A stretch of DNA of 64,000 nucleotides from Thunnus maccoyii. Lineage: Eukaryota > Chordata > Actinopteri > Scombriformes > Scombridae. A program made the translations under genes and the position numbers. The notes under the pieces are model-generated. The model worked only from the letters and a program-made list of their open reading frames with translations, was not told where the DNA came from and did no database searches. The stretch covers positions 3,720,001 through 3,784,000 of the forward strand of contig NC_056550.1 of the NCBI RefSeq assembly GCF_910596095.1, read 5' to 3'. This document shows positions 18,855 through 60,906 of the stretch, piece after piece (within the stretch, counting starts at the first letter, position 1; each line of letters opens with the position of its first letter).

Positions 18855-21800
18855 CTAGCCGCGGTGGATGTAACCGTTGATGAAGTCCAGATACTCAGAC
18901 ACTCTGGTGTAGAGGCCAGGGCGGTTACTGAGACCACAGCCTTCAGGACTCTCATAACTCACAATGCCCACCTGCTTAAACTCACCACCAACACGACACG
19001 CCAGCGGGCCGCCTTCATCCCCCTGAAGAGGACAAAAAAACACGACCTTCTTTGTGTAAGTGCTTGATTCAGTGTGTAGTTTACCTCTATGTTAAAACAT
19101 CAGTTACTGTCATGTCAGATTTACTCCCAGCTGCCCACATTCAGCATCTAAGATTGATTTTATGTTGAGAATTGAACTTGTATCTCAACTGACTTAAATA
19201 GTAAAACTCACTGTGCAGGTGTCCTTGCCTCCTGCCATGTACCCTGCACACAGCTCTTTAGACGTCAGCCAAGGATAAGCCGCCTTACAATCCTTATCAG
19301 AGACGATGGGGATCTTCAACTCCTGAAGGGTTTCTGGAGACGGCAGTGGAACTGCATGGACACATATAGAATAAGTGATATAATGATGTAGTTTAGTGAC
19401 CAAGGTATTTGTGGCTGGATGTTTTAATGTTTTTCTGTCTGTGGTAAACTAAGCCTTGAGAGAGGAGATCATATCATTCATAGTGGGTAGGGTCATATCA
19501 TAGTAGGGTCCATGGTCCAGAATAAAGATAACAATTAAACTCAGTCTGTACACACCTACAGTCCTGAGAGAAACCTAATTAATCAGGCCAAATAAGTGAA
19601 AACACCTATGGAGCCCTAAATTCTCCATCAAACTCTGTATAGTTAGATGAGAAGAACAAACTAACACATTATATCTCATTTGTTGAATCTGTATGAAAAC
19701 AGTTTTGGTCACCTACTTGATGTGCAGAACTTACCATCATTCTCAATGTGGCCCCAGCCAGCGATCCAACACTCAGATGATGCATGAAAGTTGACGTTGG
19801 CCGTGGACAGAGTCACCCGTCCACCCTGTCCTTTAGTCAACTTTTTCTTCAGCCAGACCAGGGCGATGTTGTTCACAGAGCCTCCGCCAAAGGATCGGTA
19901 CTGAGGGTGTTTGTAGACATCATTTACACCCACGTAACGTGTAGTCGCCTCGTGCAGCTTGTATGAGCCAACAAAAACCATTGATCGACGCAAGCTAGGT
20001 TTACGCTGGCTGGCAACACAAACACACATATACTGTGTTAGTTTTTCAGCATTTTTTGATGACCCTTCATTATGTACATATACCTTAACACACACAACAC
20101 ACTTGTATTCCATTATGTAGGTGGGTTCTGCAAAAGTGGGACATTTAAGCATTGCCTTGTTTTTCCATTTGACTGGATGAAACCAATAATGATTATATAT
20201 CTATTAGTCGCTTATATTTGTGTGACATCATCATTGTGGGTGTAACAGAAATTCATACAGTCTGGTTGGTGTGTGTTCAGAGTGTAAGGCCAAATAAATT
20301 GTACTGGTATTTTTATAATACAGCATCACATTTCGGTAGGTTGTTCTGATACCAGGCTCAACATATTCATATTGACTATGGATCAAACAGCTACAGGTAA
20401 TGTGAAATGGATTACTCATAGTGATGAACTCACAGAAAATTATCATCCGACTCTGCAGTTCCCTTCAACTCAACGGAGCTCATTGATTTGATTCTCCAGT
20501 TTGCAACTTAACTGTTTTGTTTCACTCTCACAGTTCTCACTGTGTAATTTTCAGCTGCAGCAGACAGCTGTGGTCAATGAAAAGGCTCTAAAAACCCACT
20601 TTACACTACCTGCTTAGCACCAAATAGCAAATGGACTAATTAGCAACTAGCTGGTGAACATTGTGGAGCATTTAGCAGCCAGATATGTTTCACAGGAGTT
20701 GTTAGAGACAAAATTCACAACTTAAAGAGAGTGAAAATGCTTTTACAGTTGTAAAGTCACAAGAAACACAACTCCAAATGAATGTTAATATTTCTGTGTG
20801 TCTGTTGGATGTGTGAATAACCAACTTTAAACACTGTCAGAGGTGTGTCTACAGCTTGCTGCTCGAAGTAGCCAAAACCTCAGTTATTTTAAAGTTTAAA
20901 CAAATACAAATTGGCCAGCTACGGCCTTGTATCTTAATCATCTTTATTTTTCTGGGGATTTGTATTTTGAGCACCGCTTAAGGTGTTAGCGTATTTTATG
21001 CAGTATTATTGCAATACTAACAGACAAGGATAATGAGCTGGATCAAGATGTTAAAGTTGTCAATTTTGTACCATATTTATTAGTTTTCAGAATCTATGTC
21101 CACAACTATTTTAACTTTAGCCTCAGTTACCCATTGTACTTTATGACAAATTATTTATAATATTTTAGTGTTCAAAGCTTTATTCACTGGTTAAACAGTT
21201 TTCATGGGTTAAAGTAACAGCAGTCACACTTTCATTGAGGTTTGTTGTTACATGAATTGTATTAAAATGTTAATGTTAAAATGTTCAAATGTATATTGAT
21301 AGTTATTGATTTCAGTATAATTATTAAATGTTTTCAATGAAAGCAATTGAAGTTTTGAATCAATTCAGTAACTTTTAACTTTTCAACAGTAATCAGTTTG
21401 CCAGTATTTCTTTCTACCATAAGTCTCCGGGGTAAAAGCCAGCGCAGTGGTGATACAAGCAATCAGTGTTATGCAGATGATTAGTGTCCTGTGAAAAAAA
21501 GACAGTTACACACTTACTCATCCCAGCAGCTTGCAGCGGTCAGCACCCACTGATCGTTGAGGATGGAGCCGCCGCAGCGCCAGTTATCGGTGCCATCAGA
21601 TGTTGTGATGCTTATGTGAACCATCCACGGCCATCTGTCCTTAACAGCATCCTTCTTCCCAACGATGGAGCTCTCCACCTCAGCCCCAAACAAACCTTTA
21701 GAAAGATGCAATGATGAAACTTTGTAAAAGTTATGTTGAGGTAGAAGTATTGAGATGGTTACATTAAGTATAAAGTTGAAAGTGTTTGACATATTTGACA

Positions 21801-23158
21801 AATCAGACATTGTCTTTGGTTGATTCTACAGTCTGGTCACTACAGGAAGAGATGCTGTGTAAATAGTTTGCACAGATCAACCTAAAATGTCCAGGTATGT
21901 TGTTTTGCCAGAGAAGACTGCAGATATTGATACCATGTTTCCTAGTTGGCTCTTAAGATTTTTTTATTTCTTTATTTGGTGTTTCAAGAGAAACTATGGT
22001 CCACTTTAACACAGTTCTGTAAAATAACTCATTTTCTTCATCACAGTTTAGTTTGGTCGTCTTTCTGCCGCTGAAACAAATGTACTAAAGAAAATAGTTA
22101 AGATTGCATCTAAAATTACTGGTCACTTATTGGTCTTTAAGGTGTATTCTTGTTGCAGCTTAGTTTTCAGGATTTAATGGTACTTTGTGTATTTTAATAC
22201 GATTTTATTCATATGCTGTGTTGAATATTGTCCTGGCTGTGCAGCTCTATGAGTTTATCAAGGTGAGTTCCTAATGTTTGTTGTAATGGCAATAAAGTTA
22301 ATTAAACTCTCAATTGAACTCAGCTTAACTACCACATTATGATTTGTAAAAATGTTTGTCAGTTTATTAAGGTAGCAAATTATATTTTACTAATAAGAGT
22401 AGGTATGTTGAAGTTGAAACTCCACTAAATGACTCATCAGTCCTTCTGGTGATATTAGAATAATGTTCTTTAGATGACAAGGAAAACGTTAACCTTGACT
22501 CAACTTAAAAATAGATTCACAACTCACACTAAATCCTTTCTAATTAAATCAACACAATGCAGTTTAAATTCTAACTGAAACAGGTGTTTATAAGTAAAGG
22601 CACCATTTCAGCAGAGTTGGGATGAACATTTTAAAAACTGTAATAGGTCATTCCCTCATTATTAAAGAGTGCAATATTGTGTTGTGACATTTTGGCAGGA
22701 GGAGCCGGGGTTTTTAACCATCAGCTCTTAGGTTTTTTAACCAGTCCCTTCTTATAATAAAAGCATTTGACTACAAACACTCACATCGGGAAGCATGTCA
22801 ACAATCACAACTTAATAACTAATTATATGACAACAATGAAATTATGGAAAACACAATGACACCAGTAAAGAAACAGCACCATGAACACATAAAATCAAAC
22901 TATGTCCATGAGTCTGTGGCCCTGGTGCATGCTGGGAGGATTCCCTACATGCCTACCTCAGGATGCTACGATAGAGACATACAAACTACACATTTTTAGA
23001 TGAACTCTAATAAGAACGTTTAATATTTGGCCTCCACTGCCAACTTAATTGAATACAAATAAGAATTAACACATTGGTCAAAATGTACACTGAATGTCTT
23101 TCTCACCTCCAGTGTTGTGGATCAGGACCAGCACAGTCAGTAGTTTGCAGAAAGCCAT
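18855..23158 (-). CDS. protease gene A: secreted S1-fold pseudoprotease (tryptase-like), 270 aa
   Basis: Exons in gene order: 23107-23158, 21518-21695, 19735-20009, 19212-19351, 18855-19022. All introns are GT-AG with matching phases, and the sum is 813 bp. [17 protein letters not shown] is a signal peptide; exon 2 opens the chymotrypsin fold at SSIVGKKDA. Core motifs: [45 protein letters not shown] and [14 protein letters not shown]. Catalytic His57 is Ser73, Asp102 is Asn124 and Ser195 is Glu218, so no proteolysis is expected. The S1-pocket Asp (residue 212, in KDTC) remains. The residue before IVG is Ser, so a trypsin-like enzyme could not activate it. A is distinctive: IVGK for IVGG, no N-I-T glycosylation site after HI, and a stop right after HRG where the other copies run on EEASAEV. 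Overall layout and length match mast-cell tryptase/PRSS-like fish genes. Function unknown; binding or decoy roles are inference. ATTAAA (minus) at 18688-18693 may be the poly(A) signal. Confidence 0.9.
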
Positions 23159-23190
23159 GGCTGTGATGGAGTGAGGCAGTGGCCCTAAGC

Positions 23191-23196
23191 TTTATA
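23191..23196 (-). promoter_or_regulatory. TATA box of protease gene A
   Basis: TATAAA on the minus strand, 33-38 bases before the ATG, in a block conserved in all five copies (CAGCTG E-box, then TGTGTGTATAAAGC). The spacing implies a 5' leader of only about 5-10 bases. Confidence 0.7.
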
Positions 23197-28839: not shown

Positions 28840-31800
28840 TTAGACCTCGGCTGAAGCTTCCTCGCCGCGGTGGATGTAACTGTTGATGAAGTCCAGATAC
28901 TCAGACACTCTGGTGTAGAGGCCAGGGCCCTCACTGCGTTTACAGCTCTCATAACTCACAATGCCCACCTGCTTAAACACACCACCAACACGACACGCCA
29001 GCGGGCCGCCTTCATCCCCCTGAAGAACACAAAAAAAACATGACGTTCATTGTGTAAGTGCTTGATTCAGTGTGTAGTTTACCTCTATGTAAAAACATCA
29101 GTTACTGTCATGTCAGATTTACTCCCAGCTGCCCACATTCAGCATCTAAGATTGATTTTATGTTGAGAATTGAACTTATATTATACAACTCAATGGACTT
29201 AAATAGTAAAACTCACCGTGCAGGTGTCCTTGTCTCTTGCCTTGTCCCCTGCACACAGCTCTTTAGAAGTCAGCCAAGGATACGTTGCCTTACAATCCTT
29301 ATCAGAGACGATGGGAATCTTCAGCTCCTGAAGGGTTTCTGGAGACGGCAGTGGAGCTGCATGGACACATATAGAATAAGTGATATAATGATGTAGTTTA
29401 GTGACCAAGGTATTTGTGGCTTGATGTTTCAATGTTTTTCTGTCTGTGGTAAACTAAGCCTTGAGAGAGGAGATCATATCATTCATAGTGGGTAGGGTCA
29501 TATCATAGCAGGGTCCATGGTCCATATTAACAAGCCATTTTGCCAATTAGGAGCCCACACAGCTGCACTAGCTGCTCAGGGTTGTTTGGGCTGAGCTCTG
29601 CTGTCACTGACATGACACATTAAAACTCAATATGTTCAATTTTCCCTTCCAAATAAGTGCAACAAAACTAACAGGAGAGAGAGGGAGATTACAATAATTT
29701 AAAAAATATATATAGAATAAAGATAACAACTAAACTCAGTCTGTACACACCTACAGTCCTGAGAGAAACCTAATCAGGCCAAATAAGTGAAAACACTTTT
29801 GGAGCCCTAAATTCTGAGAAGGACAAACTAACACATTATATCTCATGTGTTGAATCTGTACAAAAACAGTTTTGGTCACCTACTTGATGTGCAGAACTTA
29901 CCATCATTCTTAATGTTGCCCCAGCCAGCGATCCAACAGTCAGATGATGCATGAAGGTTGACGTTGGCCTTGGGCAGCTCCACCCGTCCACCCTGTCCTT
30001 TAGTCAACTTTTTCTTCAACCAGACCAGGGCGATGTTGTTCTGATAGCCTCCGCCAAAGGATCGGTACTGAGGGTGTTTGTAGACATCATTTATACCCAC
30101 ATAACGTGTAGCCGCCTCGTGCAGCTTGTATGAGCCAACAAAAACCAGTGATCGACGCAAGTCAGGATTACGCTGGCTGGCAACACAAACACACATATAC
30201 TGTGTTAGTTTTTCAGCATTTTTTGATGACCCTTCATTATGTACATATACCTTAACACACACAACACACTTGTATTGCAGTATGTAGGTGGGTTCTGCAA
30301 AAGTGGGACATTTAAGCATTGCCTTGTTTTTCCATTTGACTGGATGAAACCAATAATGATTATATATCTATTAGTCACTTATATTTGTGTGACATCATCA
30401 TTGTGGGTGTGACAGAAATTCATACAGTCTGGTTGGCGTGTGTTCAGGCAAAGTGTAAGGCCAAATGAATTGTACTGATATTTTTATAATACAGCATCAC
30501 ATTTTGGTAGGTTGTTCTGATACCAGGCTCAATATATTCATATTGACTATGGATCAAACAGCTACAGGTAATGTGAAATGGATTACTCATAGTGATGAAC
30601 TCACAGAAAATGATCATCCGACTCTGCAGTTCCCTTCAACTCGACAGAGCTCATTGATTTGATTCTCCAGTTTGCAACTTTGTTTTGTTTCACTCTCACA
30701 GTTCTCACTGTGTAATTTTCAGCTGCAGCATATTTTTCACAGGAGTTGTAAGAGACAAAATTCACAACTTAAAGAGAGTGAATATTGCTTTTATATTGGT
30801 AAAGTCACAAGAAACACAACTCCAAATGAATGTTAATATTTCTGTGTGTCTGTTGGATGTGTGAATAAACAACTTTAAACACTGTCAGAGGTGTGTTTAC
30901 AGCTTGCTGCTCGAAGTGGCCAAAACCTCAGTTATTTTAAAGTTTAAACAAATACAAATTGGCCAGCTACGGCCTTGTATCTTAATCATCTTTATTTTTC
31001 TGGGGATTTGTATTTTGAGCACTGCTTAAGGTGTTAGCGTATTTTATGCAGTATTATTGCAATACTAACAGATAAGGATAATGAGCTGGATCAAGATGTT
31101 AAAGCTGTTGTGCTGTAATGTAGATTTTGCTGTAGTTCAGATCAGATCAAGGATGTCAAATTTTGTAACATATTTATTAGTTTTCAGAATCTATGTCCAC
31201 AACTATTTTAACTTTAGCCTCAGTTACCCATTGTATTTTATGACAAATTATTTATAATATTTTAGTGTTCAAAGATTTATTTACTGGTTAAACAGTTTTC
31301 ATGGGTTAAAGTAACAGCAGTCACACTTTCATTGAGGTTTGTTGTTACATGAATTGTATTAAAATGTTCAAATGTATATTGATAGTTATTGATTTCAGTA
31401 TAATTATCAAATGTTTTCAAAGAAAGCAATTGAAGTTTTGAATCAATTCAGTAACTTTTAACTTTTCAACAGTAATCAGTTTGCCAGTATTTCTTTCTAC
31501 CATAAGTCTCCGGGGTAAAAGCCAGCGCAGTGGTGATACAAGCAATCAGTGTTATGCAGATGATTAGTGTCCTGTGAAAAAAAGACAGTTACACACTTAC
31601 TCATCCCAGCAGCTTGCAGCAGTCAGCACCCACTGATCGCTGGCGATGGAGCCGCCGCAGCGCCACTTATCGTGGCCATCAGATGCTGTGATGTTTATGT
31701 GAACCATCCACGGCCATCTGTCCTTTACAGCATCCTTCCCCCCAACGATGGAGCTCTCCACCTCAGCCCCAAACAAACCTTTAGAAAGATGCAATGATGA

Positions 31801-33055
31801 AACTTTCAAAAAAGTTATGTTGAGGTAGAAGTATTGAGATGGTTACATTAAGTATAAAGTTGAAAGTATTTGACATATTTGACAAATCAGACATTGCCTT
31901 TGGTTGAATCTACAGTCTGGTCACTACAGGAAGAGATGCTGTGTAAATAGTTTGCACAGATCAACCTAAAATGTCCAGGTATGTTGTTTTGCCAGAGAAG
32001 ACTCCAGATATTGATACCATGTTTTTCGTAGTTGGCTCTTAAGATTTTTTTATTTCTTTATTTGGTGTTTCAAGAGAAACTATGGTCCACTTTAACACAG
32101 TTCTGTAAAGTAACTCATTTTCTTCATCACAGTTTAGTTTGGTCGTCTTTCTGCCGCTGAAACAAATGTATTAAAGAAAATAGTTAATATTGCATCTAAA
32201 ATTACTGGTCACTTATTGGTCTTTAAGGTGTATTCTTGTTTTAGCTTAGTTTTCAGGATTTAATGGTACTTTGTGTATTTTAATACGATTTTATTCCTAT
32301 GCTGTGTTGAATATTGTCCTGGCTGTGGAGCTCTATGAGTTTATCAAGGTGAGTTCCTAATGTTTGTTGTAATGGCAATAAAGTTAATTAAACTCTCAAT
32401 TGAACTCAGCTTAACTACCACATTATGACTTGTAAAAAGGTTTGTCAGTTTATTAAGGTAGTCCTTCTGGTGATATTAGAATAATGTTCTTTAGATGACA
32501 AGGAAAACGTTAACCTTGACTCAACTTAAAAATAGATTCACAACTCACACTAAATCCTTTCTAATTAAATCAACACAATGCAGTTTAAATTCTAACTGAA
32601 ACAGGTGTTTTAAAGTAAAGGCACCATTTCAGCAGAGTTGGGATGAACATTTTAAAAACTGTAATAGGTCATTCCCACATTATTAAAGAGTGCAACAATC
32701 ATTATAACTTAATAACTAATTATATGACAACAATGAAATTATGGAAAACACAATGACACCAGTAAAAAAGCAGCACCAGGAACACATAAAATCAAACTAT
32801 GTCCATGAGTCTGTGGCCCTGGTGCACGCTGGGAGGATTCCCTACATGCCTACCTCAGGATGCTACGATAGAGACACACAAACTACACATTTTTAGATGA
32901 ACTCTAATAAGAACATTTAATATTTGGCCTCCACTGCCAACTTAATTGAATCCAAATAAGAATTAACACATCGGTCAAAATGTACACTGAATGTCTTTCT
33001 CACCTCCAGTGTTGTGGATCAGGACCAGCACAGTCAGTAGTTTGCAGAAAGCCAT
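28840..33055 (-). CDS. protease gene B: secreted S1-fold pseudoprotease, 274 aa
   Basis: Exons in gene order: 33004-33055, 31601-31778, 29902-30176, 29217-29356, 28840-29019 (825 bp, phases consistent). Signal peptide as in gene A, then SSIVGGKDA. The triad is replaced as in A: TAASC (residue 73), QNNIALV (124), GDEGGP (218). The pocket Asp is kept in DKDTC. Copy-specific residues lie in likely surface loops: ASDGHDKW and SIASD in exon 2, [20 protein letters not shown] and SFGGGYQNN in exon 3, DKARDKDTC in exon 4, GGVFKQVG and SCKRSEGPG in exon 5. An N-I-T glycosylation site follows HI in exon 2. The C-terminus ends EEASAEV. Every frame is open, so nothing suggests a pseudogene in the genetic sense even though the enzyme must be inactive. 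Exons 2, 4 and 5 resemble copy D most. Confidence 0.9.
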
Positions 33056-36993: not shown

Positions 36994-39900
36994 TTAGACC
37001 TCGACTGAAGCTTCCTCGCCGCGGTGGATGTAACTGTTGATGAAGTCCAGATACTCAGACACTTTGGTGTAGAGGCCAGGGCCCTTACCGGGTTTACAGC
37101 TCTTATAACTCACAATGCCCACCTGCTTAAACTCACCACCAACACGACACGCCAGCGGGCCGCCTTCATCCCCCTGAAGAACACAAAAAAAAAACATGAC
37201 GTTCATTGTGTAAGTGCTTGATTCAGTGTGTAGTTTACCTCTATGTAAAAACATCAGTTACTGTCATGTCAGATTTACTCCCAGCTGCCCACATTCAGCA
37301 TCTAAGATTGATTTTATGTTGAGAATTGAACCTATATTATATAACTCAATGGACTTAAATAGTAAAACTCACTGTGCAGGTGTCTTCTGCCTTGTCCCCT
37401 GCACACAGCTCTTTAGACGTCAGCCAAGGATACGCCGCTTTACAATCCTTATCAGAGGCGATGGGAATCTTCAGCTCCTGAAGGGTTTCTGGATATGGCA
37501 GTGGAGCTGCATGGACACATATAGAATAAGTGATATAATGATGTAGTTTAGTGACCAAGGTATTTGTGGCTGGATGTTTCAATGTTTTTCTGTCTGTGGT
37601 AAACTAAGCCTTGAGAGAGGAGATCATATCATTCATAGTGGGTAGGGTCATATCATAGCAGGGTCCATGGTCCATATTAACAAGCCATTTTGCCAATTAG
37701 GAGCCCACACAGCTGCACTAGCTGCTCAGGGTTGTTTGGGCTGAGCTCTGCTGTCACTGACATGACACATTAAAACTCAATATGTTCAATTTTCCCTTCC
37801 AAATAAGTGCAACAAAACTAACAGGAGAGAGAGGGAGATTACAATAATTTAAAAAATATATATAGAATAAAGATAACAACTAAACTCAGTCTGTACACAC
37901 CTACAGTCCTGAGAGAAACCTAATCAGGCCAAATAAGTGAAAAAACCTTTGGAGCCCTAAATTCTGAGAAGGACAAACTAACACATTATATCTCATGTGT
38001 TGAATCTGTACGAAAACAGTTTTGGTCACCTACTTGATGTGCAGAACTTACCATCATTCTCAATGTGGCCCCAGCCAGCGATCCAACAGTCAGATGATGC
38101 ATGAAAGTTGTCATTGGCCTCGGGCGGAGTCACCCGTCCACCCTCTTTGTCAGTCAAATTTTTCGTCAGCTCGACCAGGGCGATGTTGTTCACAGAGCCG
38201 CCGTGAAAGGATCGGTACTGAGGGTGTTTGATGACACTTCTTACACCCAGGTAACGTGTAGGCGCCTCGTGCAGCTTGTATGAGCCAACAAAAACCATTG
38301 ATCGACGCAAGCTAGGTTTACGCTGGCTGGCAACACAAACACACATATACTGTGTTAGTTTTCCTGCATTTTTTGATGACCCTTCATTATGTACATATAC
38401 CTTAACACACACAACACACTTGTATTGCAGTATGTAGGTGGGTTCTGCAAAAGTGGGACATTTAAGCATTGCCTTGTTTTTCCATTTGACTGGATGAAAC
38501 CAATAATGATTATCTATCTACTAGTCGCTTATATTTGTGTGACATCATCATTGTGGGTGTAACAGAAATTCATACAGTCTGGTTGGTGTGTATTCAGAGT
38601 GTCAGGCCAAATAAATTGTACTGGTATTTTTATAATACAGCATCACATTTTGGTAGGTTGTTCTGATACCAGGCTCAATATATTCATATTGACTATGGAT
38701 CAAACAGCTACAGGTAATGTGAAATGGATTACTCATAGTGATGAACCCACAGAAAATTATCATCCGACTCTGCAGTTCCTTTCAACTCGACGGAGCTCAT
38801 TGATTTGATTCTCCAGTTTGCAACTTAACTGTTTTGTTTCACTCTCACAGTTCTCACTGTGTAATTTTCAGCTGCAGCAGACAGCTGTGGTCAATGAAAA
38901 GGCTGTAAAAACCCACTTTACACTACCTGCTCAGCACCAAACAGCAAATGGACTAATTAGCAACTAGCTGGTGAACATAGTGGAGCATTTAGCAGCCAGA
39001 TATGTTTCACAGGAGTTGTTAGAGACAAAATTCACAACTTAAAGAGAGTGAATATTGCTTTTACATTGGTAAAGTCACAAGAAACACAACTCCAAATGAA
39101 TGTTAATATTTCTGTGTGTCTGTTGGATGTGTAAATAACCAACTTTAAACACTGTCAGAGGTGTGTTTACAGCTTGCTGCTCGAAGTAGCCAAAACCCGT
39201 TATTTTAAAGTTTAAATAAATACAAATTGGCACTTTCATTGAGATTTGTAGTTACATGAATTGTATTAAAATGTTCAAATGTATATTGATAGTTATTGAT
39301 TTCAGTATAATTATCAAATGTTTTCAAAGAAAGCAATTGAAGTTTTGAATCAATTCAGTAACTTTTAACTTTTCAACAGTAATCAGTTTGCCAGTATTTC
39401 TTTCTACCATAAGTCTTCGGGGTAAAAGCCAGCGCAGTGGTGATACAAGCAATCAGTGTTATGCAGATGATTAGTGTCCTGTGAAAAAAAGACAGTTACA
39501 CACTTACTCATCCCAGCAGCTTGCAGCAGTCAGCACCCACTGATCGCTGAGGATGGAGCCGCCGCAGCGCCAGTTTTCAGTGCCCTCAGATGTTGTGATG
39601 TTTATGTGAACCATCCACGGCCATCTGTCCTTTACAGCATCCTTCCCCCCAATGATGGAGCTCTTCACCTCAGCCCCAAGCAAACCTTTAGAAAGATGCA
39701 ATGATGAAACTTTGTAAAAGTTATGTTGAGGTAGAAGTATTGAGATGGTTACATTAAGTATAAAGTTGTATCTGGAGAAGACTCCAGATATTGATACCAT
39801 GTTTTTCGTAGTTGGCTCTTAAGATTTTTTTATTTCTTTATTTGGTGTTTCAAGAGAAACTATGGTCCACTTTAACACAGTTCTGTAAAGTAACTCATTT

Positions 39901-40900
39901 TCTTCATTACAGTTTAGTTTGGTCGTCTTTCTGCCGCTGAAACAAATGTATTAAAGAAAATAGTTAAGATTGCATCTAAAATTACTGGTCACTTATTGGT
40001 CTTTAAGGTGTATTCTTGTTGCAGCTTAGTTTTCAGGATTTAATGGTACTTTGTGTATTTTAATACGATTTTATTCCTATGCTGTGTTGAATATTGTCCT
40101 GGCTGTGGAGCTCTATGAGTTTATCAAGGTGAGTTCCTAATGTTTGTTGTAATGGCAATAAAGTTAATTAAACTCTCAATTGAACTCAGCTTAACTACCA
40201 CATTATGATTTGTAAAAAGGTTTGTCAGTTTATTAAGGTAGCAAATGATATTTTACTAATAAGAGTAGGTATGTTGAAGTTGAAACTCCACTAAATGACT
40301 CATTAGTCCTTCTGGTGATATTAGAATAATGTTCTTTAGATAACAAGCAAAACGTTAACCTTGACTCAACTTAAAAATAGATTCACAACTCACACTAAAT
40401 CCTTTCTAATTAAATCAACACAATGCAGTTTAAATTCTAACTGAAACAGGTGTTTTAAAGTAAAGGCACCATTTCAGCAGAGTTGGGACGAACATTTTAA
40501 AAACTGTAATAGGTCATTCCCTCATTATTAAAGAGTGCAACAATCATTATAACTTAATAACTAATTATATGACAACAATGAAATTATGGAAAACACAATG
40601 ACACCAGTAAAAAAGCAGCACCAGGAACACATAAAATCAAACTATGTCCATGAGTCTGTGGCCCTGGTGCACGCTGGGAGGATTCCCTAAATGCCTACCT
40701 CAGGATGCTACGATAGAGACATACAAACTACACATTTTTAGATTAACTCTAATAAGAACGTTTAATATTTGGCCTCCACTGCCAACTTAATTGAATCCAA
40801 ATAAGAATTAACACATCGGTCAAAATGTACACTGAATGTCTTTCTCACCTCCAGTGTTGTGGATCAGGACCAGCACAGTCAGTAGTTTGCAGAAAGCCAT
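36994..40900 (-). CDS. protease gene C: secreted S1-fold pseudoprotease, 272 aa
   Basis: Exons in gene order: 40849-40900, 39508-39685, 38052-38326, 37373-37506, 36994-37173 (819 bp, phases consistent). Exon 4 is 6 bases shorter than in A, B and D, trimming two residues from the loop before the pocket Asp (DKAEDTC). Copy E shares this. The triad is replaced as in the other copies (TAASC; VNNIALV; GDEGGP, with Glu at residue 216 here). Exon 2 reads SSIIGGKDA with TSEGTENW. Exon 3 is the most divergent of the five in its middle: APTRYLGVRSVIKHPQY, SFHGGSVNN, VELTKNLTDKEGG. It gains an N-L-T glycosylation site and keeps N-I-T in exon 2. Exon 5 has SYKSCKPGKGPG and ends EEASVEV. Exon 3 groups with A (VNN, GHIEND) while exons 4-5 group with E, a mosaic pattern. 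Confidence 0.9.
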
Positions 40901-47333: not shown

Positions 47334-50300
47334 TTAGACCTCGGCTGAAGCTTCCTCGCCGCGGTGGATGTAACGGTTGATGAAGTCCAGATACTCAGAC
47401 ACTTTGGTGTAGAGGCCAGGGCCCTCACTGCGTTTACAGCTCTCATAACTCACAATGCCTGCCTGCACAAAGCGACCACCAACACTACACGCCAGCGGGC
47501 CGCCTTCATCCCCCTGAAGAACACAAAAAAAAACATGACATTAATTGTGTAAGTGCTTGATTCAGTGTGTAGTTTACCTCTATGTAAAAACATCAGTTAC
47601 TGTCATGTCAGATTTACTCCCAGCTGCCCACATTCAGCATCTAAGATTGATTTTATGTTGAGAATTGAACTTATATTATATAACTCAATGGACTTAAATA
47701 GTAAAACTCACCGTGCAGGTGTTCTTGTCTCTTGCCTTGTCCCCTGCACACAGCTCTTTAGAAGTCAGCCAAGGATACGCCGCCTTACAATCCTTATCAG
47801 AGATGATGGGAATCTTCAGCTCCTGAAGGGTTTCTGGAGACGGCAGTGGAGCTGCATGGACACATATAGAATAAGTGATATAATGATGTAGTTTAGTGAC
47901 CAAGGTATTTGTGGCTGGATGTTTTAATGTTTTTCTGTCTGTGGTAAACTAAGCCTTGAGAGAGGAGATCATATCATTCATAGTGGGTAGGGTCATATCA
48001 TAGCAGGGTCCATGGTCCATATTAACAAGCCATTTTGCCAATTAGGAGCCCACAAAGCTGCAATAGCTGCTCAGGGTTGTTTGGGCTGAGCTCTGCTGTC
48101 ACTGACATGACACATTAATACTCAATATGTTGAATTTCCCCTTCAAAATAAATGCAACAAAACTAACAGATTACAATAATTTAAAAATATATATAGTATA
48201 AAGAATAAATTAAACTCAGTTTGTACACACCTACAGTCCTGACAGAAGTCTAATCAGGCCAAATAAGTGAAAACACCTTTGGAGCCCTAAATTCTGAGAA
48301 GAACAAACTAACACATTATATCTCATGTGTTGAATCTGTACAAAAACAGTTTTGGTCACCTACTTGATGTGCAGAACTTACCATCATTCTTAATGTTGCC
48401 CCAGCCAGCGATCCAACAGTCAGATGATGCATGAAGGTTGACGTTGGCCTCGGACAGATTCACCCGTCCACCCTGTCCTTGAGTCAACTTTTTCGTCAGC
48501 TTGACCAGGGCGATGTTGTTCTGATAACCTCCGCCAAAGGATTGGTACTGAGGGTGTTTGATGACACTATTTACACCCACGTAACGTGTAGCCAACTCGT
48601 GCAGCTTGTATGCGCCAACAAAAACCATTGATCGATGCAAGTCAGGATAACGCTGGCTGGCAACACAAACACACATACACTGTGTTAGTTTTTCAGCATT
48701 TTTTGATGACCCTTCATTATGTACATATACCTTAACACACACAACACACTTGTATTGCAGTATGTAAGTGGGTTCTGCAAAAGTGGGACATTTAAGCATT
48801 GCCTTGTTTTTCCATTTGACTGGATGAAACCAATAATGATTATATATCTACTAGTCGCTTATATTTGTGTGACATCATCATTGTGGGTGTGACAGAAATT
48901 CATAGAGACTGGTTGGTGTGTGTTCAGGCAAAGTGTAAGGCCAAATAAATTGTACTGGTATTTTTATAATACAGCATCACATTTTGGTGGGTTGTTCTGA
49001 TACCAGGCTCAATATATTCATATTGACTATGGATCAAACAGCTACAGGTAATGTGAAATGGATTACTCATAGTGATGAACTCACAGAAAATTATCATCCG
49101 ACTCTGCAGTTCCCTTCAACTCGACGGAGCTCATTGATTTGATTCTCCAGTTTGCAACTTAACTGTTTTTTTTCACTCTCACAGTTCTCACTGTGTAATT
49201 TTCAGCTGCAGCAGACAGCTGTGGTCAATGAAAAGGCTGTAAAAACCCACTTTACACTACCTGCTCAGCACCAAACAGCAAATGGACTAAAGAACATTTA
49301 GCAGCCAGATATGTTTCACAGGAGTTGTAAGAGACAAAATTCACAACTTGAAAAGAGTGAATATTGCTTTTACAGTTGTAAAGTCACAAGAAACACAACT
49401 CCAAATGAATGTTAATATTTCTGTGTGTCTGTTGGATGTGTGAATAACCAACTTTAAACACTGTCAGAGGTGTGTTTACAGCTTGCTGCTCGAAGTGGCC
49501 AAAACCTCAGTTATTTTAAAGTTTAAACAAATACAAATTGGCCAGCTACAGCCTTGTATCTTAATCATCTTTATTTTTCTGGGGATTTGTATTTTGAGCA
49601 CCGCTTAAGGTGTTAGCGTATTTTATGCAGTATTATTGCAATACTAACAGACAAGGATAATGAGCTGGATCAAGATGTTAAAGCTGTTGTGCTGTAATGT
49701 AGATTTTGCTGTAGTTCAGATCAGTCAAATTTTGTACCATATTTATTAATTTTCAGAATCTATGTCCACATCTATTTTAACTTTAGCCTCAGTTACCCAT
49801 TGTATTTTATGACAAATTATTTATAATATTTTAGTGTTCAAAGATTTATTTACTGGTTAACCAGTTTTCATGGGTTAAAGTAACAGCAGTCACACTTTCA
49901 TTGAGGTTTGTTGTTACATGAATTGTATTAAAATGTTCAAATGTATATTGATAGTTATTGATTTCAGTATAATTATTACATGTTTTCAAAGAAAGCAAAT
50001 GAAGTTTTGAATCAATTCAGTAACTTTTAACTTTTCAACAGTAATCAGTTTGCCAGTATTTGCACAGTGGTGATACAAGCAATCAGTGTTATGCAGATGA
50101 TTAGTGTCCTGTGAAAAAAAGACAGTTACACACTTACTTATCCCAACAGCTTGCAGCAGTCAGCACCCACTGATCGCTGAGGATGGAGCCGCCGCAGCGC
50201 CACTTATCGTGGCCATCAGATGTTGTGATGTTTATGTGAACCATCCACGGCCATCTGTCCTTTACAGCATCCTTCCCCCCAACGATGGAGCTCTTCACCT

Positions 50301-51530
50301 CAGCCCCAAGCAAACCTTTAGAAAGATGCAATGATGAAACTTTGTAAAAGTTATGTTGAGGTAGAAGTATTGAGATGGTTACATTAAGTATAAAGTTGTA
50401 TCTGGAGAAGACTCCAGATATTGATACCATGTTTTTCGTAGTTGGCTCTTAAGATTTTTTTATTTCTTTATTTGGTGTTTCAAGAGAAACTATGGTCCAC
50501 TTTAACACAGTTCTGTGAAGTAACTCATTTTCTTCATTACAGTTTAGTTTGGTCGTCTTTCTGCCGCTGAAACAAATGTATTAAAGAAAATAGTTAATAT
50601 TGCATCTAAAATTACTGATCACTTATTGGTCTTTAAGGTGTATTCTTGTTTTAGCTTAGTTTTCAGGATTTAATGGTACTTTGTGTATTTTAATACGATT
50701 TTATTCATATGCTGTGTTGAATATTGTCCTGGCTGTGGAGCTCTATGAGTTTATCAAGGTGAGTTCCCAATGTTTGTTGTAATGGCAATAAAGTTAATTA
50801 AACTCTCAATTGAACTCAGCTTAACTACCACATTATGATTTGTAAAAAGGTTTGTCAGTTTATTAAGGTAGCAAATTATATTTTACTAATAAGAGTAGGT
50901 ATGTTGAAGTTGAAACTCCACTAAATGACTCATTAGTCCTTCTGGTGATATTAGAATAATGTTCTTTAGATGACAAGGAAAACGTTAACCTTGACTCAAC
51001 TTAAAAATAGATTCACAACTCACACTTAATCCTTTCTAATTAAATCAACACAATGCAGTTTAAATTCTAACTGAAACAGGTGTTTTAAAGTAAAGGCACC
51101 ATTTCAGCAGAGTTGGGACGAACATTTTAAAAACTGTAATAGGTCATTCCCTCATTATTAAAGAGTGCAACAATCATTATAACTTAATAACTAATTATAT
51201 GACAACAATGAAATTATGGAAAACACAATGACACCATTAAAAAAGCAGCACCAGGGACGCATAAAATCAAACTATGTCCATGAGTCTGTGGCCCTGGTGC
51301 ATGCTGGGAGGATTCCCTACATGCCTACCTCAGGATGCTACGATAGAGACATACAAACTACACATTTTTAGATGAACTCTAATAAGAACGTTTAATATTT
51401 GGCCTCCACTGCCAACTTAATTGAATCCAAATAAGAATTAACACATCGGTCAAAATGTACACTGAATGTCTTTCTCACCTCCAGTGTTGTGGATCAGGAC
51501 CAGCACAGTCAGTAGTTTGCAGAAAGCCAT
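47334..51530 (-). CDS. protease gene D: secreted S1-fold pseudoprotease, 274 aa
   Basis: Exons in gene order: 51479-51530, 50138-50315, 48382-48656, 47712-47851, 47334-47513 (825 bp, phases consistent). Signal peptide as in the other copies; SSIVGGKDA follows a Ser, so there is no activation site. The triad is replaced as in the family (TAASC, QNNIALV, GDEGGP). D alone also loses the S1-pocket Asp: exon 4 reads DKARDKNTC, with Asn where trypsin-like enzymes have Asp189. The codon spanning exons 2-3 gives Asn rather than Asp after SCWD. Exon 3 has QRYPDLHRS, GAYKLHELATRYVGVNSVIKH, YQSFGGGYQNN and VKLTKKLTQGQGG. Exon 5 has ACSVGGRFVQAGIV and SCKRSEGPG, ending EEASAEV. Exons 2, 4 and 5 are closest to B. 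Confidence 0.9.
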
Positions 51531-51562
51531 GGCTGTGATGGAGTGAGGCAGTGGCCCTAAGC

Positions 51563-51568
51563 TTTATA
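51563..51568 (-). promoter_or_regulatory. TATA box of protease gene D
   Basis: TATAAA on the minus strand 33-38 bases before the ATG. Just upstream, the spacing changes by two bases (a GA insertion next to the E-box, 'ctggagagatgaaatc'). Confidence 0.7.
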
Positions 51569-52383: not shown

Positions 52384-53862
52384 TCATTCTTCACTGACAA
52401 AAGTCAGAAAATAAGACAAACAGTCAGTGCCTCCATATCAGGTGCAGGATATGCGCTGTCCCTGTGTCCATTTAAAATCAATTTTAGTAGTATGACACAA
52501 TTCCATCCGATCAACCATAAAAACCTGGAGAACATTATACAACATCTGAAATCCTCCTCTTGCTGCCTTGATATTCTGCCTACAGGCTTTTTCAAAACTG
52601 TTTCAAATTGAATGGCCTCAGATCTTCTACAGATTGTCAACACATCTCTTCTCTCAGGTGTCTTCCCACAGGCCCTGAAAACTGAAGTCATCAAGCCACT
52701 CTTAAAAAAGAACACTCTAGACACTTCACTTATGAGCAACTATAGGCCCATATCAAACCTCCCATTTTAAAGCAAGATCATTGAAAAAGCTGTTTTTCAA
52801 CAACTGAACAACATTGTGGCACTAAACAACTGTTTTGATGCCTTCCAGTCAGGATTTCAACCACACCACAGCACTGAGACTGCTCTTGTTAAAGTCTCCA
52901 ATGACATACACTTAAACACCAACAGTGGGAGAATTACAGTAATAGTATTACTAGATCTCAGTGCCGCATTTGACGCGGTCGACACACATCTGAGCGGACA
53001 ATAATGACATGCGGAGTTCCCCAAGGCTCCATTCTGTTCAACATCTACATGCTTCCACTAGCTCAGATTATGGGAAACAATAAAATATGCTACTACAGTT
53101 ATGCGGATGACCTACAAATTTACATAACCGTATCACCAGGGGACTATAGTCCATTACAAGCACTGAGCAAATCAATGATTGGATGTGCCAGAATTTTCTT
53201 CAGTTAAACAAAGACAAAACTGAAGTAATTGTTTTTGCAGCCAAAGAAGAACGTTTAAAAGTCAGCACTCAGCTTCAATCAGTAATGTTAAAAACCACAA
53301 ACCAAGCCAGAAATTTTGGTGTAGTCATGGACTCAGACCTGAATTTCAACAGCCACATTAAGACAGTTACAAAGTCAACCTACTATCACCTGAAGAATAT
53401 ATTAAGAATGAAAGGACTTATGTCTCAGCAGGATTTGAAAAAACTTGTCCATGCATTTATCTTCAGTAGACTTGACTACTGTAATGCTGTCTTCATAGGT
53501 CTCCCTAAAAAATCGGTCAGACAGCTGCAGCTGATTCAGAACGCTGCTGCTCGAGTCCTCACTAAGACTAAGAAAGTGGATCACATCACTCCAGTTCTCA
53601 GATCTTTACACTAGCTTCCTGTCTGTCAAAGAATTGACTTTAAGATATTGCTGCTGGTTTATAAAGCACTAAATGGTTTAGGGCCAAAATACATCTCTGA
53701 TCTGCTGCTACATTATGAACCATCTAGACCTCTCAGGTCGTCTGGGACAGGTCTGCTTTCTGTCCCCAGAGTAAAAACTAAACATGGTGAAGCAGCTTTC
53801 AGTTTTTATGCTCCATATATCTGGAACAAACTCCCAGAAAACTGTAGATCTGCTGCGACTCT
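52384..53862 (+). mobile_element. L2-clade LINE, copy 2 (5' part deleted)
   Basis: Nearly identical to copy 1 from its position 43061 onward. It opens inside FASFFTDKSQ and continues through the reverse transcriptase with YADD (here YADDLQIY) and the C-terminal blocks. It shares with copy 1 the TGA after KTVSN and the deletion before CGVPQGS, so it was duplicated with the array and did not insert independently. It adds private damage: a stop where copy 1 has PFLSKII, a 14-base deletion near 53167 (ALSKSMIG), and a stop near 53613. The frameshift that splits copy 1 near 44205 is absent here. Confidence 0.9.
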
Positions 53863-54255
53863 CAGGTGCCTGATTGGCACCTGCTTGGCCTGCCATGACT
53901 GCCCTTCACCGTCAGGCCCGTTTGGGCTGGTGTCGACAACACGTGCACTGGAACCTGAACATTTGGAGGAACGTTATGTTCAGTGATGAGTCTACAGCAG
54001 TTTGATTGTAGGGTCAAAGTGTGGAGAAGACGCGGAGAACGCTATGCTGATTGCTGCACCGATAGAGTAACATCTTTTGGTGGAGGCAGTGTGATGGTGT
54101 AGGGCCGCATCTCCCTCACTGCAAAAACGAGGCTTGTCATCATTGGAGGCAATCTCAATGCAGAGAGATATCGAGATAAAATTCTGCAACCAGTGGCAAT
54201 CCCATATCTCCACAGTCTGGGACCGAACTCTATCCTCCAAGATGACAACGCTTGC
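53863..54255 (+). mobile_element. Tc1/mariner transposase fragment, copy 2
   Basis: Same fragment, same ends and same junctions as 44553-44945, differing at a handful of bases. It moved as part of the duplicated LINE-Tc1 block. The unit flank resumes at about 54267 and runs to 55403. Confidence 0.85.
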
Positions 54256-56635: not shown

Positions 56636-59600
56636 TTAGACCTCAGCTGAAGCTTCCTCGCCGCGGTGGATGTAACTGTTGATGAAGTCCAGATACTCAG
56701 ACACTCTGGTGTAGAGGCCAGGGCGGTTACCGGGTTTACAGCTCTCATAACTCACAATGCCCACCTGCTTAAACTCACCACCAACACTACACGCCAGTGG
56801 GCCACCTTCATCCCCCTGAAGAACACAAAAAAAACATGACGTTCATTGTGTAAGTGCTTGATTCAGTGTGTAGTTTACCTCTATGTAAAAACATCAGTTA
56901 CTGTCATGTCAGATTTACTCCCAGCTGCCCACATTCAGCATCTAAGATTGATTTTATGTTGAGAATTGAACCTATATTATATAACTCAATGGACTTAAAT
57001 AGTAAAACTCACTGTGCAGGTGTCTCCTGCCTTGTCCCCTGCACACAGCTCTTTAGACGTCAGCCAAGGATACGCCGCCTTACAATCCTTATCAGAGACG
57101 ATGGGGATCTTCAGCTCCTGAAGGGCTTCTGGATATGGCAGTGGAGCTGCATGGACACATATAGAATAAGTGATATAATGATGTAGTTTAGTGACCAAGG
57201 TATTTGTGGCTGGATGTTTCAACGTTTTTCTTTCTGTGGTAAACTAAGCCTTGAGAGAGGAGATCATATCATTCATAGTGGGTAGGGTCATATCATAGCA
57301 GGGTCCATGGTCCATATTAACAAGCCATTTTGCCAAATAGGAGCCCACACAGCTGCACTAGCTGCTCAGGGTTGTTTGGGCTGAGCTCTGCTGTCACTGA
57401 CATGACACATTAAAACTCAATATGTTCAATTTTCCCTTCCAAATAAGTGCAACAAAACTAACAGGAGAGAGAGGGAGATTACAATAATTTAAAAAATATA
57501 TATAGAATAAAGATAACAACTAAACTCAGTCTGTACACACCTACAGTCCTGAGAGAAACCTAATCAGGCCAAGTAAGTGAAAACACCTTTGGAGCCCTAA
57601 ATTCTGAGAAGAACAAACTAACACATTATATCTCATGTGTTGAATCTGTACAAAAACAGTTTTGGTCACCTACTTGATGTGCAGAACTTACCATCATTCT
57701 TAATGTTGCCCCAGCCAGCGATCCAACAGTCAGATGATGCTTGAAGGTTGTCATTGGCCTTGGGCAGATCCACCCGTCCACCCTGTTTGTCAGTCAACTT
57801 TTTCTTCAAATAGACCAGGGCGATGTTGTTCTGATAGCCTTCGGCAAAGGATCGGTACTGTGGGTGTTTGATGACATTATTTACACCCACGTAACGTGTA
57901 GGCTCCTCGTGCAGCTTGTATGCGCCGATCCAAACCATTGATCGACGCAAGCTAGGTTTACGCTGGCTGGCAACACAAACACACATATACAGTGTTAGTT
58001 TTTCAGCATTTTTTGATGACCCTTCATTATGTACATATACCTTAACACACACAACACACTTGTATTCCATTATGTAGGTGGGTTCTGCAAAAGTGGGACA
58101 TTTAAGCATTGCCTTGTTTTTCCATTTGACTGGATGAAACCAATAATGATTATATATCTACTAGTCGCTTATATTTGTGTGACATCATCATTGTGAGTGT
58201 GACAGAAATTCATATGGTCTGGTTGGCGTGTGTTCAGGCAAAGTGTAAGGCCAAATAAATTGTACTGGTATTTTTATAATACAGCATCACATTTTGGTGG
58301 GTTGTTCTGATACCAGGCTCAATATATTCATATTGACTATGGATCAAACAGCTACAGGTAATGTGAAATGGATTACTCATAGTGATGAACTCACAGAAAA
58401 TGATCATCCGACTCTGCAGTTCCCTTCAACTCGACGGAGCTCATTGATTTGATTCTCCAGTTTGCAACTTAACTGTTTTGTTTCACTCTCACAGTTCTCA
58501 CTGTGTAATTTTCAGCTGCAGCAGACAGCTGTGGTCAATGAAAAGGCTGTAAAAACCCACTTTACACTACCTGCTCAGCACCAAACAGCAAATGGACTAA
58601 TTAGCAACTAGCTGGTGAACATAGTGGAGCATTTAGCAGTCAGATATGTTTCACAGGAGTTGTTAGAGATAAAATTCACAACTTAAAGAGAGTGAATATT
58701 GCTTTTACATTTGTAAAGTCACAAGAAACACAACTCCAAATGAATGTTAATATTTCTGTGTGTCTGTTGGATGTGTGAATAACCAACTTTAAACACTGTC
58801 AGAGGTGTGTTTACAGCTTGCTGCTCGAAGTGGCCAAAACCTCAGTTATTTTAAAGTTTAAACAAATACAAATTGGCCAGCTACGGCCTTGTATCTTAAT
58901 CATCTTTATTTTTCTGGGGATTTGTATTTTGAGCCCTGCTTAAGGTGTTAGCGTATTTTATGCAGTATTATTGCAATACTAACAGACAAGGATAATGAGC
59001 TGGATCAAGATGTTAAAGCTGTTGTGCTGTAATGTAGATTTTGCTGTAGTTCAGATCAGATCAAGGATGTCAAATTTTTTTAAATATTTATTAATTTTCA
59101 GAATCTATGTCCACAACTATTTTAACTTTCGCCTCAGTTACCCATTGTATTTTATGACAAATTATTTATAATATTTTAGTTTCAAAGATTTATTTACTGG
59201 TTAACCAGTTTTCATGGGTTAAAGTAACAGCAGTCACATTTTCATTGAGGTTTGTTGTTACATGAATTGTATTAAAATGTTCAAATGTATATTGATAGTT
59301 ATTGATTTCAGTATAATTATCAAATGTTTTCAAAGAAAGCAATTGAAGTTTTGAATCAATTCAGTAACTTTTAACTTTTCAACAGTAATCAGTTTGCCAG
59401 TATTTCTTTCTACTATAAGTCTCCGGGGTAAAAGCCAGCGCAGTGGTGATACAAGCAATCAGTGTTATGCAGACGATTAGTGTCCTGTGAAAAAAAGACA
59501 GTTACACACTTACTCATCCCAGCAGCTTGCAGCAGTCAGCACCCACTGATCCCTGACGATGGAGCCGCCGCAGCGCCAGTTATCAATGCCCTCAGATGTT

Positions 59601-60906
59601 GTGATGTTTATGTGAACCATCCACGGCCATCTGTCCTTTACAGCATCCTTCCCCCCAATGATGGAGCTCTTCACCTCAGCCCCAAGCAAACCTTTAGAAA
59701 GATGCAATGATGAAACTTTGTAAAAGTTATGTTGAGGTAGAAGTATTGAGATGGTTACATTAAGTATAAAGTTGTATCTGGAGAAGACTCCAGATATTGA
59801 TACCATGTTTTTCGTAGTTGGCTCTTAAGATTTTTTTATTTCTTTATTTGGTGTTTCAAGAGAAACTATGGTCCACTTTAACACAGTTCTGTAAAGTAAC
59901 TCATTTTCTTCATTACAGTTTAGTTTGGTCGTCTTTCTGCCGCTGAAACAAATGTATTAAAGAAAATAGTTAAGATTGCATCTAAAATTACTCGTCACTT
60001 ATTGGTCTTTAAGGTGTATTCTTGATGCAGCTTAGTTTTCAGGATTTAATGGTACTTTGTGTATTTTAATACGATTTTATTCATATGCTGTGTTGAATAT
60101 TGTCCTGGCTGTGGAGCTCTATGAGTTTATCAAGGTGAGTTCCTAATGTTTGTTGTAATGGCAATAAAGTTAATTAAACTCTCAATTGAACTCAGCTTAA
60201 CCACCACATTATGATTTGTAAAAAGGTTTGTCAGTTTATTAAGGTAGCAAATGATATTTTACTAATAAGAGTAGGTATGTTGAAGTTGAAACTCCACTAA
60301 ATGACTCATCAGTCCTTCTGGTGATATTAGAATAATGTTCTTTAGATAACAAGCAAAACGTTAACCTTGACTCAACTTAAAAATAGATTCACAACTCACA
60401 CTAAATCCTTTCTAATTAAATCAACACAATGCAGTTTAAATTCTAACTGAAACAGGTGTTTTAAAGTAAAGGCACCATTTCAGCAGAGTTGGGACGAACA
60501 TTTTAAAAACTGTAATAGGTCATTCCCTCATTATTAAAGAGTGCAACAATCATTATAACTTAATAACTAATTATATGACAACAATGAAATTATGGAAAAC
60601 ACAATGACACCATTAAAAAAGCAGCACCAGGGACGCATAAAATCAAACTATGTACATGAGTCTGTGGCCCTGGTGCACGCTGGGAGGATTCCCTACATGC
60701 CTACCTCAGGATGCTACGATAGAGACATACAAACTACACATTTTTAGATGAACTCTAATAAGAACGTTTAATATTTGGCCTCCACTGCCAACTTAATTGA
60801 ATCCAAATAAGAATTAACACATTGGTCAAAATGTACACTGAATGTCTTTCTCACCTCCAGTGTTGTGGATCAGGACCAGCACAGTCAGTAGTTTGCAGAA
60901 AGCCAT
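56636..60906 (-). CDS. protease gene E: secreted S1-fold pseudoprotease, 272 aa
   Basis: Exons in gene order: 60855-60906, 59514-59691, 57692-57966, 57013-57146, 56636-56815 (819 bp, phases consistent). The triad is replaced as in the family: TAASC, QNNIALV, GDEGGP. The pocket Asp is kept in DKAGDTC, inside the two-residue-shorter loop shared with C. Exon 2 has SSIIGGKDA, TSEGIDNW and SIVRDQW, and an N-I-T glycosylation site. Exon 3 has SMVWIGAYKLHEEPTRYVGV, FAEGYQNN, VYLKKKLTDKQGG and ANDNLQASSDCW. Exon 5 has [12 protein letters not shown] and SCKPGNRPG, ending EEASAEV. By hand count exon 3 differs from A at about 34 of 275 bases and 23 of 91 residues, while the adjoining 285 bases of intron differ at about 7. 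Exon 3 groups with B and D in places, exons 4-5 with C. Confidence 0.9.

Follow-up and report, generated by a model that had tools for sequence, protein, structure and literature searches.

Five tandem S1 protease-like genes of Thunnus maccoyii as predicted members of an acanthomorph pseudoprotease family

Introduction

A 64,000 bp stretch of the Thunnus maccoyii genome (assembly GCF_910596095.1 of 782 Mb, contig NC_056550.1 of 30.2 Mb, C18:3720001-3784000), referred to here as the window, raises the question of why a tuna would keep five neighbouring genes of the S1 serine protease fold when the catalytic triad is missing from all of them. The genes follow one another head to tail along the minus strand, from 60906 to 18855, with five coding exons each. 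An earlier note on this DNA, made from the sequence alone, had described the array and proposed a retained non-enzymatic role; the observation was right, and its interpretation is partly supported. Judged from the sequences of the array and its relatives, the combination Ser-Asn-Glu (S-N-E) at triad positions 57, 102 and 195 appears to be the state that scombrids reached within a larger acanthomorph pseudoprotease family, which in tuna forms an array with the marks of positive selection.

Active site and protein features

The motifs TAASC, NNIAL and GDEGGP were present in all five copies (c1–c5) on the minus strand, placing Ser, Asn and Glu at positions 57, 102 and 195 in each, i.e. none has the triad of an active S1 protease. 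The Pfam Trypsin domain (PF00089) was matched over model positions 1–220 of 220 in the two copies scanned, c1 (E-value 4.5e-50) and c5 (1.2e-51), which confirmed the array as S1 genes by whole-domain homology. The two-barrel fold was likewise found: the AlphaFold2 model of the close relative P0001 had a mean pLDDT of 85, and Foldseek matched it to tryptases with probability 1.00, human tryptase being the best match in the Protein Data Bank. Of the marks of a pseudoprotease, the fold (in the P0001 model) and intact frames were found, while likely spliced transcripts come from other family members.

The mature proteins comprise 243–247 amino acids from an IIGG or IVGG N-terminus, and each contains eight cysteines, which lie at the sites of the four standard S1 disulphides. 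Gly193 and Asp194 are retained in all copies, and Asp189 in four (Asn in c4), while Trp215-Gly216 of active proteases is replaced by Tyr-Glu in four copies and Tyr-Lys in c3. Isoelectric points (pI) range from 6.0 to 8.4 and net charges from -4.4 to +2.5 at pH 7.4. The residue preceding the mature N-terminus is Ser instead of Arg or Lys; since the active Oncorhynchus and herring relatives have the same Ser, it is not a mark of inactivation. The tuna copies are predicted to be secreted and, because the nucleophile is missing, proteolytically inactive.

Array layout and gene models

Splice-aware models gave proteins of 270, 274, 272, 274 and 272 amino acids (c1 to c5) with no internal stop, and all 20 introns start with GT and end with AG, so that the copies are indeed intact five-exon genes. 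Neighbouring genes are 7.8–10.6 kb apart, and the interval 18855–60906 is bounded exactly by the c1 stop codon and the c5 start ATG. A putative promoter element, TATAAA, was read 33–38 bases before the ATG in all five copies. In c1, a TAG ends the protein seven residues before the end of the other copies, position 19 is Lys where the others have Gly (IVGK versus IVGG), and the N-glycosylation site is absent; a Thunnus maccoyii database record is identical to it over the 226 columns compared. The same copy is also set apart by a three-residue stretch in exon 5 that resembles non-tuna relatives. The features are as follows, models being splice-aware throughout.

60939..60944, minus strand: TATAAA upstream of c5 (read from sequence)
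60855..60906, minus strand: c5 exon 1, start codon and signal peptide, identical in all five copies (model)
59514..59691, minus strand: c5 exon 2, N-terminus IIGG, Ser at position 57 (motif search, model)
57692..57966, minus strand: c5 exon 3, Asn at position 102, most variable exon (motif search, model, copy comparison)
57013..57146, minus strand: c5 exon 4 (model)
56636..56815, minus strand: c5 exon 5, Glu at position 195, stop (motif search, model)
51479..51530, minus strand: c4 exon 1 (model)
50138..50315, minus strand: c4 exon 2 (model)
48382..48656, minus strand: c4 exon 3 (model)
47712..47851, minus strand: c4 exon 4 (model)
47334..47513, minus strand: c4 exon 5 (model)
40849..40900, minus strand: c3 exon 1 (model)
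39508..39685, minus strand: c3 exon 2 (model)
38052..38326, minus strand: c3 exon 3 (model)
37373..37506, minus strand: c3 exon 4 (model)
36994..37173, minus strand: c3 exon 5 (model)
33004..33055, minus strand: c2 exon 1 (model)
31601..31778, minus strand: c2 exon 2 (model)
29902..30176, minus strand: c2 exon 3 (model)
29217..29356, minus strand: c2 exon 4 (model)
28840..29019, minus strand: c2 exon 5 (model)
23107..23158, minus strand: c1 exon 1 (model)
21518..21695, minus strand: c1 exon 2, IVGK for IVGG, no N-glycosylation site (model)
19735..20009, minus strand: c1 exon 3 (model)
19212..19351, minus strand: c1 exon 4 (model)
18855..19022, minus strand: c1 exon 5, TAG seven residues early (sequence, model, tblastn)

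In the window, tblastn with c1 and c5 as queries revealed no sixth or degenerate copy, all other matches having E-values of 0.78 or worse. The whole-genome search with the c5 protein, in which the best 142 of 291 candidates were scored, returned 41 matches at E-values up to 1e-6. Twenty of these were exons 2–5 of the five array genes (70–98% identity), the short exon 1 being among no matches, and the other 21 were only 29–46% identical to c5. Within this scope, neither a further family member nor a copy with an active triad, at the locus or elsewhere, was found in this Thunnus genome.

Relatives and history of the triad

Two protein searches, the second represented by the best 120 of 3540 hits, resulted in 149 relatives. 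Nearest to c5 were 'tryptase-2-like' proteins of Thunnus (86–90% identity for three full-length ones), and the next 88 rows, nearly all from named acanthomorph fishes, were 40–61% identical; database labels of the family are 'tryptase-2' or 'tryptase-2-like', in some records 'trypsin'. The tree contained 101 rows (96 database proteins and the five window copies), with the three triad columns removed, and its 93 acanthomorph rows consisted of 86 named ones from 80 species, two contigs placed by the tree, and the window copies.

Among the 93 acanthomorph rows, no complete His-Asp-Ser (H-D-S) triad was found. Two rows keep Ser195 and carry Gln or Asn at position 57; the other 91 have a different residue in place of Ser195. 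Position 195 is Tyr in 70 rows, Glu in 11 (all scombrid), Asn in four, Asp in three, Ser in two and other residues in three; position 57 is Ser in 35, His in 24, Asn in 23, Gln in five, Arg in five and Gly in one; and position 102 is Asp in 78 and Asn in 15. The other acanthomorph 'tryptase-2-like' proteins resemble those of tuna in sequence (40–90% identity to c5), signal peptide and replaced Ser195, but differ from the scombrid ones in their mostly conserved Asp102 and in Tyr195. Polymixia, an acanthomorph outside Euacanthomorphacea, is already N-D-Y. The triad is intact in six of seven Oncorhynchus sequences (O. kisutch P0149 is H-N-S), in Clupea (herring) and in one further contig.

The 53 relatives kept out of the tree were fragments, near-duplicates, distant S1 proteins and four outgroups. 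Among them, 21 were judged to be acanthomorph family members and none of these reads H-D-S, at least one triad position being missing or not surely readable in seven (P0060, P0071, P0078, P0088, P0090, P0093, P0103). H-D-S was read in the left-out Oncorhynchus rows P0142–P0144 and in P0146 of Myripristis (33% identity, 471 amino acids), which is taken as a distant paralogue. Two further distant S1 proteins, P0109 and P0110 (32% identity), read S-D-E in pairwise alignment, a parallel to the scombrid Ser57 and Glu195.

The window copies are nested in a Thunnus clade (100/100) within a scombrid clade (98/90) that unites the S-N-E rows and joins Pampus, which is S-D-N, at 94/93, as expected for Pelagiaria. 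Among the rows examined, S-N-E was confined to Thunnus and Scomber. The copies do share one triad, as the earlier note had it, but as a single inherited state shared with Scomber; five independent losses are rejected by the triad rows and the tree. Likewise, the exact triad that the note did not recognise as a described family is peculiar to scombrids, but it belongs to a wider acanthomorph family, of which no published description was among the matches listed (at most 25 per search) when the open PMC literature was searched for it or for pseudoproteases of fish. Within Thunnus, c3 groups with a T. albacares protein (99/96) and c2 plus c4 with a T. thynnus protein (100/98), therefore at least part of the array predates these species.

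Intron-free frames of 266–277 amino acids were found on three contigs of 953–1070 bp (P0065, N-D-Y; P0120, H-D-Y; P0131, G-D-Y), which are likely spliced transcripts if the genes of these relatives have introns as those of tuna do; for this reason the family is likely to be expressed. A grouper 'tryptase-2 precursor, partial', listed among the proteins of an interaction screen with a virus capsid protein (PMC7552068), is perhaps another sign of expression, its family membership being putative.

Constraint on the scaffold

Parsimony changes were counted for 235 columns over the 93 acanthomorph rows (median 17). No change was recorded at Ile16, six of the eight cysteines, Gly193, Gly196, Pro198 or Gly140-Trp141-Gly142, and one each at the two remaining cysteines and Asp194. 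Position 57 had changed 26 times (69th percentile of columns), position 195 twelve times and position 102 four times. The site of the catalytic His57 thus seems to evolve as an ordinary residue inside a strictly conserved fold, and this drift on a held scaffold is strong sequence evidence that a non-enzymatic role is old, beyond what the keeping of frames in five young copies can tell. Asp189 is kept in 73 of 94 rows (the 93 plus P0149), and an ASAEV-like tail in 44 of the 88 acanthomorph database rows.

Diversification of the copies

Between the copies, the mean pairwise difference is 0 in exon 1 and 5.8, 11.0, 6.5 and 7.0% in exons 2–5, compared with 2.1–2.7% in introns, 1.8% downstream and 4.0% upstream. 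In the mature part, replacement differences per site (pN) are 0.088 and silent differences (pS) 0.065 with an intron difference of 0.023, resulting in a pN/intron ratio of 3.7 (95% interval 2.8–4.9). For exon 3 taken by itself, pN is 0.130 and pS 0.049. Codon site models, coded in Python and using no introns, favoured M2a over M1a on the three best topologies (twice the log-likelihood difference 67.6–70.5), with omega 7.8–8.8 on 18–20% of codons.

Each of the ten two-copy partitions that are possible is represented in the 103 informative columns, an indication of gene conversion between copies. The site-model test was for this reason repeated with five blocks, each on its own tree, and selection was again favoured (50.6, p 1e-11, omega 7.3 on 22%). 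Sixteen sites, 12 of them in the N-terminal half, passed 0.9 on all three topologies, and sites of the 60-loop on one topology only. The selected sites lie at about 37, 47, 70–90, 96–100, 107–125, 186–188, 206 and 220–225 (chymotrypsin numbering, counted along the chain). The same 16 sites also evolve faster in non-scombrid fish (median 20.5 versus 14 changes, p 0.008). Taken together, the codon patterns argue that the tuna copies are under diversifying (positive) selection.

Four control arrays of S1 genes elsewhere in the same genome, chosen from the genome search listing, lack this pattern, with pN/flank ratios of 1.23, 0.98, 0 and 0.50. These form a coarse yardstick, with one stretch of 270–477 bases taken from each and flank divergence of 1–6%; the C10 and C18 stretches seemingly include some intron, flanks may hold other exons, and the C18 array is represented by part of its copies. 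Exon divergence several-fold above that of introns is best known in venom genes, whose families show a like pattern of homogenised introns and diversified exons. Tuna are not known to be venomous.

Proposed function and alternative explanations

The scaffold conservation over 93 rows, the drift of position 57 and the diversifying selection in tuna together support the retained non-enzymatic role proposed earlier, and form a strong argument against plain pseudogenes. With a probability of roughly 0.6, the five genes would encode secreted S1 pseudoproteases that bind a changing partner in a setting of innate defence. The sequences support a starting point in a fish tryptase-like enzyme with an intact triad, as still present in the Oncorhynchus and Clupea relatives. 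Catalytic Ser195 was lost, mostly to Tyr and in the simplest case a single time on the acanthomorph stem, while the fold, disulphides, Ile16 and Asp194 were retained and His57, in places also Asp102, drifted. The site became Ser/Asn/Glu in Scombridae, and in Thunnus the gene was duplicated into the array, its exons diversifying under positive selection and being shuffled between copies. Binding would occur through the face of the N-terminal barrel and the loops that surround the dead cleft. The partner would be fast-changing, either a molecule of microbes or parasites or a targeted host protease, inhibitor or receptor, and because it changes fast several slightly differing copies would be worth keeping. 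Mammalian tryptases work in innate or mucosal defence, which is also the most likely setting here.

A farther-reaching form of this reading is tentative. An early acanthomorph conversion of a tryptase-like enzyme might have yielded a widely kept recognition protein built on a dead protease; the tuna would then own a small repertoire of five secreted pseudoproteases, with cleft-edge and barrel loops diversified by selection and reassorted by conversion, serving at mucosal surfaces as host-side decoys or binders against parasites or microbes that change fast, comparable to the scabies mite proteins discussed below.

Several observations weigh against the binding of a changing partner or against steps towards it. 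In the free tree, beryciforms and Polymixia stand next to the active sequences of Oncorhynchus and Clupea (87/72), which if read literally requires two losses or a regain. A tree constraining the 93 rows to one clade was better by 6.4 log-likelihood units than that of the free search (p 0.55 in the approximately unbiased test); a single loss of Ser195 on the acanthomorph stem is for this reason the simplest, though unproven, reading. The bootstrap was unsettled in both trees, and an earlier tree of 86 rows, made without Oncorhynchus and Polymixia, placed the scombrids as basal among the fish rows with weak support, a position given up for the grouping with Pampus once rows were added. On the side of selection, exon pS also exceeds the intron level (ratio 2.8, 95% interval 1.7–4.0), so that the exon/intron ratio overstates replacement selection, and the excess is in part older ancestry kept in exons or homogenisation of introns; conversion that homogenises introns, combined with selection for differing exons, would yield such a pS excess. 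The pooled pN/pS of 1.35 (95% interval 0.88–2.25) is not significantly above 1, pN (0.047) is below pS (0.105) in exon 4, and the 0.4 kb upstream are more divergent than the introns. Gene conversion violates the single-tree site model, a problem that the block trees lessen and do not remove. Protein databases would hide broken orthologues, such as the earlier note had named as a sign of plain pseudogenes, so the finding that 83 of the 88 acanthomorph database rows of the tree are at least 260 amino acids long speaks to this point in part. Finally, we infer the defence role from kinship and selection alone.

The alternative that survives best, although unlikely, is that of a receptor ligand in the manner of the growth factors HGF and MSP, in which the dead active-site region docks a receptor of the host and diversification means subfunctional ligands instead of conflict. 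In PMC5017023 and PMC13194640, HGF is described as having lost the catalytic His and Ser, with its main Met interface roughly at the active-site position of plasmin, so that a pseudo-active site on an S1 fold serves as binding surface. The combinations Q-D-Y, H-D-Y and N-D-Y among family members fit this alternative. HGF itself has Gln and Tyr at the places of His57 and Ser195. HGF and MSP are, however, kringle-bearing growth factors, whereas the tuna proteins are fast-evolving and of 270–274 amino acids, with a single Trypsin domain and no plasminogen-like kringles in c1 and c5, and a conserved host receptor would not predict replacement differences at 3.7 times the intron level.

Slightly less probable still is a noncatalytic regulator or decoy within the protease networks of the fish itself. 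It would compete with an active protease for a cofactor, a substrate or an inhibitor, and no partner from outside the fish would be involved. The retained Ile16, Gly193 and Asp194 and the frequent Asp189 would suit such a role, and protein Z and VaaSPH-1 are precedents (PMC13194640). Glu (four copies) or Lys (one) at the place of Gly216 should nevertheless hinder canonical binding in the cleft, and the diversification is hard to account for if the partner does not change.

That the copies are functionless and decaying, kept by chance and gene conversion, is very improbable. The truncation and the altered Gly19 of c1 are what decay might look like, but five models free of frameshifts and internal stops, conserved splice sites, an identical exon 1, supported relatives of c3 and c2 plus c4 in other Thunnus, lengths of at least 260 amino acids in most acanthomorph database rows and diversifying selection all oppose it, and neutral copies would show equal divergence in exons and introns. 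An assembly artefact, with haplotypes or errors laid out as five closely alike units 7.8–10.6 kb apart, can practically be dismissed, since the introns differ mostly by 1–4% with distinct indels, the window lies in a contig of 30.2 Mb, and the tree supports one relative for c3, in T. albacares, and a different one for c2 plus c4, in T. thynnus.

Comparison with known systems

S1 pseudoproteases are known as single cases (HGF, haptoglobin, azurocidin) and as parasite, insect or venom families. The present one would be a vertebrate family spread across acanthomorphs under the labels 'tryptase-2-like' or 'trypsin'. The intact Oncorhynchus and Clupea relatives permit direct comparison with the dead members, and what a dead protease has been selected to bind becomes a question that farmed fish allow to be tested directly.

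The SMIPP-S proteins of the scabies mite are a multigene S1 family with mutated triads, some of which inhibit human complement (PMC4930577). They share these traits with the fish family, but are proteins of a parasite and kin of group 3 allergens, whereas the fish proteins are kin of tryptases in a host animal; descent is not shared, as the window copies are placed among the 'tryptase-2-like' rows of fishes (in a tree built without mite sequences). Snake-venom serine protease homologues (His57Arg, Ser195Asn; VaaSPH-1) likewise are triad-altered S1 paralogues under accelerated evolution, for which binding is proposed in PMC11511063 and PMC13194640. They differ in their descent from venom kallikreins and in being inactive among active members, where the acanthomorph rows examined have no complete triad.

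The best solved relative of c5 by sequence is human alpha-tryptase, tryptases being best also by fold. Human tryptases keep His-Asp-Ser, which the tuna copies do not. Asp216 of alpha-tryptase, the residue altered in its D216G mutant, is comparable to the tuna Glu or Lys at 216. In alpha-tryptase, this Asp hampers catalysis. Mast-cell tryptase is a heparin-stabilised tetramer; the tuna protein is without the stretch of about ten residues before Cys182 found in tryptase, and this may speak against such a tetramer.

Azurocidin, also with Ser for His57, is a strongly basic relative of neutrophil elastase. The earlier note had named it as an analogue, which proved weak: the pI of 6.0–8.4 sets the tuna copies apart from strongly cationic azurocidin, and an azurocidin-like cationic antimicrobial was rejected as the main explanation on these grounds. 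Azurocidin is moreover found in some placental mammals only, as an S1 protein without proteolytic activity, according to PMC4646688. Pseudoproteases of the HGF and scabies mite types are closer analogues.

Putative mast cells in the gills of southern bluefin tuna are stained by an antibody raised to human tryptase (PMC5372790), and the pseudoprotease family is one candidate antigen. Tryptase was unmentioned in the main text of a barramundi mucus proteome. If this family is what they detect, 'tryptase' read-outs in spiny-rayed fish, mast-cell antibody staining included, do not necessarily indicate a protease.

Genomic surroundings and other S1 arrays

No match was obtained by the Rfam scan of the window at gathering thresholds or by the tandem-repeat scan at score 100. 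Exons of a dihydrouridine synthase gene, presumably DUS1L-like, flank the downstream side of the array on the plus strand (9417–13500), with Pfam Dus matched in two pieces (E-values 7e-10 and 2.8e-10). Similar retroelement-like open reading frames occur between and beside the copies, at 42670–44679, 53150–53986 and 62696–63460. Pfam RVT_1 was matched at 43288–43680 and 43650–44255, and no Pfam match was obtained in the two other stretches tested. These elements may have promoted the duplications of the array.

Two S1 arrays elsewhere in this genome were also noted. The one at G000:C1:24650507-24678755, with four listed copies carrying GDSG and a mild rise in replacement change (pN/pS 1.23, pN/flank 1.23), looks granzyme- or mast-cell-protease-like by eye. 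That at G000:C20:15935000-15961000 comprises at least 15 units at a spacing of about 1.5 kb with nearly identical scores, which suggests a tandem gene lately amplified or homogenised.

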